The translations under genes were made by a program, and so were the position numbers. DNA of 25,386 nt from positions 1 through 25,386 of IMG/VR virus record IMGVR_UViG_3300009170_000028, one strand, 5' to 3'. Of the stretch, positions 15,840-24,114 are shown in pieces. Under the pieces are notes generated by a model. It searched no databases and was not told the origin of the DNA. It saw nothing but the letters and a program-made list of their open reading frames with translations. The stretch comes from a virus. The stretch's first letter is position 1, and each line of letters begins with the position of its first letter.

Positions 15840-17278
15840 TGGCTAACCTTATTTTCCCTCAAAGCCCATTTCTTGATCCAAATGGAAGGCCAGCCCGTGA
15901 GTGGATTCAATGGTTACAAAACCCTGACGTTAATACAATTACGGCGGTAACTTTTGACGTTGATAACGTTATTTTAACTTTGCCGTTAGAAGTAATTTAC
16001 GGCGGCACAGGTTTAACGGCAATACCTACAAACGGTCAATTATTGATCGGTAACGGTACGGGTTACACACTTAGCACACTTACAGCAGGTACTGGTTTAG
16101 CAATTACTAACGCTGCTGGATCAATCACTCCAAGCATTGCAAACACTGGTGTCACGGCTGGCTCTTACGGTTCTGCATCGTCTGTTACGACTTTGACTGT
16201 AAACGCTCAAGGTCAATTGACGGTTGCGGGTAACGTTGCCATTGCAATTTCAGCTTCTCAGATTACTAGCGGCACATTGGCTGTTGCCCGTGGCGGCACT
16301 GGATTATCGTCATACACAATTGGCGATATTATTTTTGCTAGTGGCACAACGGCCTTATCAAGATTAGCAGACGTTGCTACGGGTAATGCGTTGATTTCAG
16401 GTGGTGTTGGTGTTGCGCCAAGTTACGGCAAAATAGGGCTAACCACTCATGTTTCGGGCGTTTTGCCTGAAGTAAATGGCGGCACTAATCAATCAACGTA
16501 TGCAACTGGCGATATTTTGTATGCATCTGCTACAAACACTTTGTCCAAGTTAGCAAAGCCATCGTCTAATTCGTATTTGGCGATGACTTCAGCGGGTGTG
16601 CCTAGTTGGAAGAATCCTAAATATGGCACGTTTTACAATACTACTGACGAAGTTGTTGGCATTATCAATACTCCATACCCATTAGCTTTAGATACAACAG
16701 ATTTAAGCAATGGCGTGACGGTTGCAACTACTACTGCGGTTGTTACGGGCAGCATTGCGCTATTTGTATTGACTGTCACAGCGGTCACAAGTGGCACACT
16801 GTCGATTGGACAGGTAATTAGCGGAACTGGTGTTACAGCGGGTACTCGCATTGTTGCGTTTGTTTCTGGCTCTGGGGGGGCGGGAACGTATACCGTTGAC
16901 AAGTCACAAACGGTATTAAGTACAACAATATCCGCAACCAAATCTACTCGCATTACTGTAGCTGCTGACGGTGTATATAACTTTCAGTTTTCAGCACAAC
17001 TTGATAAAACAAGTTCGTCTGCAAAAGATGTATGGATTTGGGCAAGAATTGATGATGTTGATGTACCTGACTCGGCAGGCAAAATAACTTTATCCGGTTC
17101 AAACGCTGCAACCATAACTTCATGGAATTATGTTTACAACCTTTCGGCAAATAGTTATTTTGAGTTGATGTGGGCGGCTGAAGATGTTGATTGCATCATG
17201 CCATCAACCCCAGCTTCATCTTTTGTGCCTAGTATTCCTGCGTTAATTATGACTGTAACGAACAATATCAGCGTATGA
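15839..17278 (+). CDS. Tail fibre / needle-position protein
   Basis: A 479-residue fibrous protein. Its N-terminus ([24 protein letters not shown]) looks like a virion attachment segment. The shaft has three phage-fibre repeats beginning GGTGL or GGTNQ near residues 55, 152 and 214, followed by GQLLIG, GDIIFA and GDILYA. Residues about 302-365 are a beta module also found in the gp4-like protein. Residues about 370-479 ([28 protein letters not shown]) resemble the C1q/TNF-type jelly roll seen at the tips of phage fibres. It occupies the slot of P22 gp26 (tail needle), so it may plug the tail or carry a receptor-binding knob; this is inference. A run of seven G lies at 16874-16880. Confidence 0.78.
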
Positions 17279-22896: not shown

Positions 22897-23121
22897 ATGG
22901 ATTCACAAATGCTTTTTAATATTGCAATCGGTTTAGCTTCATTTTTTGGCGGCTGGGTGTTAAACAACATAACTAAAGCAATTGATCGTCTTGATAATGA
23001 TGTGCGTAAAATGCCAATGATTTACATTAGCAAAGAAGAATATCATCGTGATATTGATGACATTAAAATTATGCTTGGCAAGATTTTTGACAAACTTGAC
23101 AACAAGGTAGACAAATCATAG
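22897..23121 (+). CDS. Small membrane-anchored coiled-coil protein of the lysis cassette
   Basis: A 74-residue protein with one N-terminal transmembrane helix (about residues 6-24, ending GGWVLNN) and a charged, probably coiled-coil C-terminal half (DDIKIMLGKIFDKLDNKVDK). This layout resembles small holin-associated or XhlA-like proteins found before phage holins. It starts directly after the previous stop, with a TAAATG junction. Its TAG stop overlaps the proposed non-AUG start of the next gene. It could also be a spanin-like element, but it lacks the expected paired lipoprotein partner. Confidence 0.65.
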   Translation: MDSQMLFNIAIGLASFFGGWVLNNITKAIDRLDNDVRKMPMIYISKEEYHRDIDDIKIMLGKIFDKLDNKVDKS

Positions 23122-23483
23122 ACCCGCTAACCATCCTCGCAGCTCTTGGCCCTCTTGCCGTTGATCTTGGCAAAAGCCTGATTGGTCGATTCATTCAGAC
23201 TGACGTATATAAACCCGTCAATATCGGTGAGTACGTTCAAATGCGTGGCATTGATCTTGAAATGTTTAAGGCAATGAATAGCGTTGGGGGCGCAGGTACG
23301 ACTTACCCTTGGGTAGAGGCAATCGTTCGGTTAATGCGCCCAGGCGTGGCGGCGGTGGTGCTTGGCACATGGTCATTTATGATGATGACAGGTCAAGATA
23401 GCGCAGCAGTTAACAACTTTGCGTCGGCTGTTGGATTCTACTTATTCGGTGATCGGACTCTGTTTTACGCACAAAAGAAATGA
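23118..23483 (+). CDS. Holin-like membrane protein with apparent non-AUG start
   Basis: Translation from ATA at 23118 gives 121 residues; the first ATG is at 23241 (80 residues). From 23118 the frame reads (I)DPLTILAALGPLAVDLGK, which looks like the normal N-terminus of a phage small membrane protein, and no stop lies between it and the ATG. The only earlier options are ATC at 23115 and, further up, a stop at 23097. AAGG at 23104-23107 could serve as ribosome site, and ATAG overlaps the previous stop. Three hydrophobic segments (N-terminal, VAAVVLGTWSFMMM, and NFASAVGFYLFG) and the position directly before an endolysin suggest a holin. Family membership is inferred. If the ATA reading is wrong, the gene is 23241-23483. 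Confidence 0.65.
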   Translation: MDPLTILAALGPLAVDLGKSLIGRFIQTDVYKPVNIGEYVQMRGIDLEMFKAMNSVGGAGTTYPWVEAIVRLMRPGVAAVVLGTWSFMMMTGQDSAAVNNFASAVGFYLFGDRTLFYAQKK

Positions 23484-24091
23484 TTACAAAAAGTTTGTTG
23501 GTTGATTCAAAGACCTGTTCTGAGGACATGGCTGACAAATGGATTGACGCATTAAATCAAGTTTGCGAAAAATACGAGATAAATACCGCATTGAGAATTG
23601 CAGGGTTTTTAAGCCAATGCGGTCACGAATCAGGTGGTTTTAGATACACCGTTGAAAACTTTAACTACAGCGCAGCTCGGTTGTTAATGGTTTTTCCTCA
23701 TTACTTCAATGCGGATTCCGCTAAAAATTATGAGTACAAACCAGAAAAGATTGCAAACAGGGTCTACGCAAACCGAATGGGCAACGAAGATGAAGCCAGT
23801 GGGGATGGTTGGCAGTACCGTGGTCGAGGACTCATCCAGCTTACTGGCAAAGATAGTTACGCAGCTTTTTCGATGGCTTCTGACAATAACTCGCTAGTCG
23901 AGCCTGACTTGCTTGAGCAGCCTGAGTTGGCTGCAATGTCTGCTGGGTGGTACTGGTCTACTAGAAAGATAAATAGCCTAGCAGACGCTCAAGATGTGCT
24001 TGGAATGACTAAGCGTATTAATGGCGGCACTAACGGGTTAGATGACCGCCAAATGAGATACTCACGGTTAATTGAATACTATTCAAAATAA
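23480..24091 (+). CDS. Endolysin, GH19 chitinase-like
   Basis: A 203-residue glycoside hydrolase family 19 lysozyme-like enzyme that should cleave peptidoglycan at lysis. The motif GFLSQCGHESGGF contains the likely catalytic acid Glu50, with the second acidic residue Glu59 in TVENFNYSA. The conserved GDGWQYRGRGLIQLTG spans residues 108-123, and KRINGGTNGLDDR marks the C-terminal part. It has no signal peptide, so it should depend on the holin for access to the cell wall. Its start overlaps the previous stop as ATGA, and a strong terminator follows directly. All signature residues are present and the length is usual for a single-domain phage enzyme. Confidence 0.93.
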   Translation: MITKSLLVDSKTCSEDMADKWIDALNQVCEKYEINTALRIAGFLSQCGHESGGFRYTVENFNYSAARLLMVFPHYFNADSAKNYEYKPEKIANRVYANRMGNEDEASGDGWQYRGRGLIQLTGKDSYAAFSMASDNNSLVEPDLLEQPELAAMSAGWYWSTRKINSLADAQDVLGMTKRINGGTNGLDDRQMRYSRLIEYYSK

Positions 24092-24114
24092 AGCCCCAGT
24101 TACGGGGCTTTAAT
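24089..24114. terminator. Bidirectional intrinsic terminator between convergent units
   Basis: AAAGCCCC (24090-24097), loop AGTTAC and GGGGCTTT (24104-24111) form a perfect 8-bp stem. TAATTT follows on the plus side, and the complement of TCAAAAT gives a T-rich run on the minus side. It ends the plus-strand late operon and the minus-strand small-gene operon. Confidence 0.85.

Follow-up and report, generated by a model that had tools for sequence, protein, structure and literature searches.

The best explanation for the open frame at 23118–23483 of the window (the whole stretch of viral DNA that was analysed, 25,386 nt) is, in our view with high probability, that it encodes a 121-residue membrane protein of the lysis cassette, which starts at a weak AUA codon (23118) of the infC kind and is probably produced at a low level. 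Comparison with relatives establishes the position of this start, its reality and its recurrence: judged from the aligned genes, the use of ATA, ATC or ATT at the start position (together referred to as AUH) is real and recurrent in related aquatic phages.

The reading frame and its lysis cassette

As originally predicted, the frame has no usual start before ATG 23241. An in-frame stop (TGA, 23097–23099) is followed by the codons CAA CAA GGT AGA CAA ATC (23115) ATA (23118) GAC CCG, there is no ATG, GTG or TTG between TGA 23097 and ATG 23241, and the frame remains open up to the next stop, TGA 23481–23483. The ATA overlaps the stop of the upstream gene in the sequence ATAG, exactly as had been described, and the ATGA overlaps to which this geometry was likened are indeed present elsewhere in the genome, e.g. 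at 23480–23483 (endolysin gene), 1869–1872 and 17275–17278. The relevant features, with the evidence for each, are:

22897..23121, + strand: upstream 74-aa gene with one N-terminal hydrophobic segment; ATG start (in 57/57 distinct homologues); phrog_462 match and weak phrog_9316 holin match
23104..23108, + strand: Shine-Dalgarno-like (SD) AAGGT, 9 nt before ATA; same motif and spacing before ATG in L009 and L007
23115..23117, + strand: AUC codon (codon -1), candidate alternative or second start; kept in most, not all, AUH members
23118..23120, + strand: AUA start codon (codon 0); ATG position in most homologues, SD spacing, L005, L606 and L629
23118..23483, + strand: holin-like membrane-protein gene, 121 codons plus stop, start AUA; open frame, conserved N-terminus, purifying selection on codons 2–41
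23119..23121, + strand: TAG stop of the upstream 74-aa gene, overlapping the start (ATAG)
23241..23243, + strand: first in-frame ATG (Met42), the ordinary gene-caller start and not the real start; Val in L160
23480..24091, + strand: endolysin gene, GH19, phrog_181; its ATG overlaps the stop of the holin-like gene (ATGA)

No tRNA genes were found within the 25,386-nt window. Directly after the endolysin stop there is a GC-rich hairpin (24091–24113, AAAGCCCC AGTTAC GGGGCTTT) that resembles a lysis-operon terminator.

The designation “holin-like” made in the original prediction can be retained in part. The protein is small, has hydrophobic stretches at about residues 3–25 and 64–90, and is encoded directly upstream of the GH19 endolysin gene; searches of Pfam and PHROGs gave no convincing family match for the 121-residue protein and no match to a holin model. 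Its AlphaFold model is all-helical but poor (pLDDT 53.5). M15-type genes adjoin the corresponding gene in several relatives. We assign the product as a lysis-cassette membrane protein on account of its two hydrophobic stretches and the GH19/PHROG-endolysin gene directly downstream; the evidence does not reach beyond a putative holin-like protein of this kind.

Start codons among the homologues

The 121-residue reading has 439 relatives in IMG/VR (family A), and homologues have the N-terminus DPLTILAALGPLAVDLGKS in common. The stretch encoded between 23121 and 23241 is present in the best 80 of the 439, whose first-position codon is ATG in 63, ATC in 13, ATA in 3 and ATT in 1. In 221 distinct genes (distinct start-region-plus-gene sequences, with scans that used divergent members as queries included and those fetched by an AUH-biased DNA pattern left out), codon 0 is ATG in 161, AUH in 51 (ATA 32, ATC 17, ATT 2) and GTG in 3, while 6 of the 221 have ATG or GTG one codon earlier, followed by ATT or ATC. 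The last scan contributed three further AUH genes (L554, L606, L629). The alignment of homologues that had been proposed thus places M-D-P behind ATG in most members and behind ATA, ATC or ATT in about a quarter, which confirms the position of the start; none of the homologues was seen to begin at the residue encoded by 23241. In some subgroups (L160, L286, L289, L290, L561, L565) the start, ATG or GTG, is displaced upstream by one codon, and ATT/ATC or TTT occupies the usual start position.

In several members, including L091, L085, L238 and L554, an NTG start is impossible as there is an in-frame stop 12–24 nt upstream; in these four, as in the window, no ATG, GTG or TTG occurs between the in-frame stop and the conserved N-terminus. 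Codons 2–41 have pN/pS values of 0.014, 0.051 and 0.106 in three AUH clades, lower than codons 43 to the end, and the frames are intact at a synonymous divergence (pS) of 0.23–0.67 within these clades. The low pN/pS implies that translation in those members covers the codons ahead of the first ATG. The start position is conserved and coding selection extends right up to it; together with the shared N-terminus, the purifying selection on codons 2–41 bears out the coherent N-terminus that was read from the window before 23241.

All 170 genes of four neighbouring control families have an ATG start (upstream TM gene 57/57, SprT-like 34/34, M15 27/27, lysozyme 52/52), and the GH19 gene has one in 10/10. 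Three small genes downstream of a second family, B (see below), were left out as controls because GTG was counted or because local matches did not begin at residue 1. When 5918 ORFs of the same loci were scanned for other AUH genes, the hits were confined to family A, proteins resembling family B, and two isolated ORFs whose coding status is doubtful. The gene that follows the SprT-type AUH members at first seemed likely to start with AUA as well, but its start is ordinary: one codon earlier there is an in-frame ATG that overlaps the stop. Among the genome contigs searched, the only relative is in one Sulfuritalea MAG (56% identity, ATG-TTC start), and none was found in 299 further genomes of that MAG's order.

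The AUH start has been exchanged repeatedly. On a tree of 191 genes, built only from the codons after the start, at least 17 AUH/NTG changes are required (bootstrap range 16–17, the bootstraps being not fully settled), and supported branches impose at least 12 of these; a quick tree gave 12 changes, with 6 so imposed. Recombination can transfer a start region along with the upstream gene, and so these changes are best described as swaps of start regions rather than as proven point mutations. At least 5 kinds of upstream gene precede AUH starts, and two genes that are 97.8% identical have opposite start kinds, TAAGGAG...ATC ATA in L167 vs TTA ATG in L378. In the other AUH subgroups there is usually a well-placed SD (UAAGGAG or AGGUGA) before the AUH, and ATC followed by ATG occurs in none. 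An association of strong SDs with AUH, as would be expected if the SD compensated for the weak start, is a trend only (p 0.003 if kinship is ignored), and significance is lost over independent pairs.

The initiating codon and a possible mechanism

ATA 23118 had been proposed as the start with ATC 23115 as the other candidate, and our data favour ATA, as it is homologous to the ATG starts, is properly spaced from the SD, and has counterparts in L606 and L629. Initiation one codon earlier at AUC 23115, or at both codons so as to give M-I-D-P and M-D-P forms, is unlikely, although one pattern speaks for it: codon -1 is conserved as ATC (27/30 dereplicated AUH genes, with AUH of some kind in nearly all) while codon 0 varies between ATA, ATC and ATT, and L160, L286, L561 and L565 have their ATG or GTG start at -1, with ATT/ATC or TTT as the next codon. 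The spacing argues against it. Among 654 ATG ORFs of these contigs, GGAG ends 5–11 nt before the ATG, rarely 14–15 and never <5, whereas in AUH genes with TAAGGAG it ends 6–7 nt before codon 0 but only 3–4 nt before codon -1. In the window's own clade, the usual distance from the end of AGGT is 6 nt to codon 0 and 3 nt to codon -1, and no AGGT at a spacing of 3 nt was found before ATG starts in the ORFs of these contigs. The AAGGT of the window, at a proper spacing for codon 0, is weak but shared with ATG relatives. Further, in L606 and L629 the ATA at codon 0 is preceded by a non-AUH codon (TCT/GCT), with the ATAG overlap exactly as in the window, and in L023 an ATC replaces the ATG while its -1 codon (ATA) is unchanged. 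Finally, isoleucine codons in the window are ATT 221, ATC 61 and ATA 51, against ATA or ATC at codon 0 in 49/51 AUH genes, so that codon 0 does not resemble an ordinary Ile codon.

Even with AUA 23118 as the preferred start, the presence of AUH at codon -1 in nearly all AUH members is left unexplained by a single start at codon 0; the two codons may together form a double weak start. ATC-ATN behind an SD occurs in 47 AUH genes and in no ATG gene, though a single substitution would suffice to regain ATG. Few ATG members have ATC at codon -1, and in infC tandem AUH codons are rare. One-base indels between SD and ATC distinguish L238 from L259, which argues against any start upstream of that ATC.

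A frame that has no start of its own and is joined to the upstream gene by frameshifting or stop read-through is very improbable. It would fit the observation that the upstream gene ends no more than 14 nt from the start in nearly all AUH members, but these upstream genes are unrelated (a single-TM protein, another small TM protein, an M15 peptidase, a SprT-like protein, an HNH-like ORF), they end in phase 0, 1 and 2 relative to the start, and in-frame stops and SDs sit between them and the start; we reject it on the unrelated genes and the three phases.

That the sequence is in error, or that the window carries a lone broken copy of an ATG gene, is less likely still. ATA and ATG are one base apart, as the original prediction pointed out when it raised this alternative, but it is refuted by an independent contig from another sample (L005, 88% nucleotide identity over 2.1 kb), which has the same ATA, and by AUH in many other contigs. 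AUH occurs in 51 distinct genes with intact frames, the AUH clades have diverged (pS 0.23–0.67), and ATG is found at codon 0 in none of the genes with an SD-ATC-ATN start region. L002 and L095 represent the same sequence as the window. Translation from ATG 23241, with the 41 codons before it untranslated, can likewise be rejected with near certainty: although this is the first ATG of the frame, codons 2–41 are the more conserved part (pN/pS 0.01–0.11 in AUH members), most homologues have their ATG 41 codons earlier, Met42 is not always Met (Val in L160), and the first hydrophobic stretch would be lost.

For the AUA start at 23118 we envisage that the codon would be read by initiator fMet-tRNA with a third-base mismatch, and that ribosomes finishing the upstream gene would restart at the ATAG overlap, aided by the weak SD AAGGT. 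In family A, a weak AUH start has replaced AUG time after time, the likely effect being that output of the lysis protein is held low and tuned. We infer fMet initiation, low output, coupling to the upstream gene and sensitivity to IF3; any role in the timing of lysis is likewise conjectural, as the original prediction already said.

A second family and comparison with known systems

Family B is a dissimilar protein of about 200–240 residues (xDPLTLLAAANAAVAAVKKGCQLYKDIKG...) with a C-terminal hydrophobic segment. It sits at the head of lysis cassettes which, read from sequence, comprise an 84-aa TM gene, a small TM protein, a spanin-like pair and a lysozyme. The family was first pulled by the AUH-biased DNA pattern, and the counts are from an unbiased scan with one member: in 67 distinct genes the start is GTG in 33, ATT in 32 and ATG in 2. 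The ATT often directly follows an in-frame TAA (GGAGGAATAA ATT). Among the many examples are:

L098:1173-1886, + strand: family B gene
L088:2358, - strand: family B gene
L477:3001-3708, + strand: family B gene

The structural model of family B is helical with moderate confidence (pLDDT 78), and the alignment between A and B is confined to the first 11 residues (hhalign probability 46%). Both families have a single-TM gene, or genes ending ITPGEG-L, as upstream neighbours, and as these are shared, B seems to take the place of A. An N-terminus xDPLTxLAA and the habit of weak starts are common to the two otherwise dissimilar families. In GenBank MW202462 (L553:4001-4690), the annotated start of a family B gene is an internal ATG lying 24 nt downstream, while the conserved N-terminus follows a GTG (GTG CTA GAC CCC).

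AUH recurs about a dozen times in phage genes, and ATT makes up half of family B. That a weak start recurs close to lysis genes suggests that low output has been selected for. In favour of selection, as against accident, are this recurrence, persistence, the lack of reversions beside good SDs, and the preference of family B for GTG or ATT. More tentatively, and with rather less than even confidence, we propose that in a broad group of aquatic phages the genes that open the lysis cassette (families A and B) have been selected for an AUH or GUG start, such that a good SD with a weak start, or stop-start coupling, may govern lysis at the stage of translation, perhaps in connection with the level of host IF3 and with the tandem AUC-AUH codons. 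Natural AUG/AUH pairs such as L167 and L378 allow the effect of a weak start on lysis to be tested. There is also a practical consequence, as gene finders restricted to ATG, GTG and TTG truncate or lose such genes; the best they can achieve here is an 80-aa fragment from 23241.

To our knowledge, very few bacterial genes have an AUH start, the main example being infC. AUH is a known kind of start, but we found nothing in the open-access literature on AUH starts in phage lysis genes, nor on their recurrent use there. GTA_holin_3TM and other small phage holins are small proteins with hydrophobic segments, encoded beside the endolysin, and the 121-residue protein is like them in size, hydrophobic segments and endolysin-adjacent position, with no Pfam or PHROGs holin match. 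In phage lambda, the S gene (S107/S105) starts at either of two AUGs, two codons apart, and a charged residue distinguishes the two products. It is similar in that lysis-protein output is set at the start site, and many members of the present family have neighbouring in-frame starts (ATG-ATG, ATC-ATA); it differs in that two forms here would differ by one neutral residue, with no known antiholin role.

In sigR of Streptomyces, a GTC start keeps the protein low, and a swap to ATG, GTG or TTG leads to over-production (PMC5472188). Common to both cases is a non-canonical start, which here would likewise act as a brake on protein level; sigR differs as a cellular gene with a different codon and an effect that was experimentally shown.

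The original prediction invoked infC as a precedent for rare non-AUG starts; AUH starts are established for this gene, and IF3 represses such starts by rejecting initiation complexes on non-canonical start codons (PMC5472188); third-base pairing and IF3 are also treated in PMC10158994. In infC genes of Burkholderiales genomes (L444-L472), ATC or ATA is at the start position in 25/25 readable cases, which serves as an illustration only. The family described here differs from infC in that it is a phage lysis-cassette gene, AUH alternates with AUG among relatives and the preceding codon is usually AUH too; autoregulation does not apply, since the product is not IF3. What the two have in common is an AUH codon that serves as the sole start and is conserved over long evolutionary distances.
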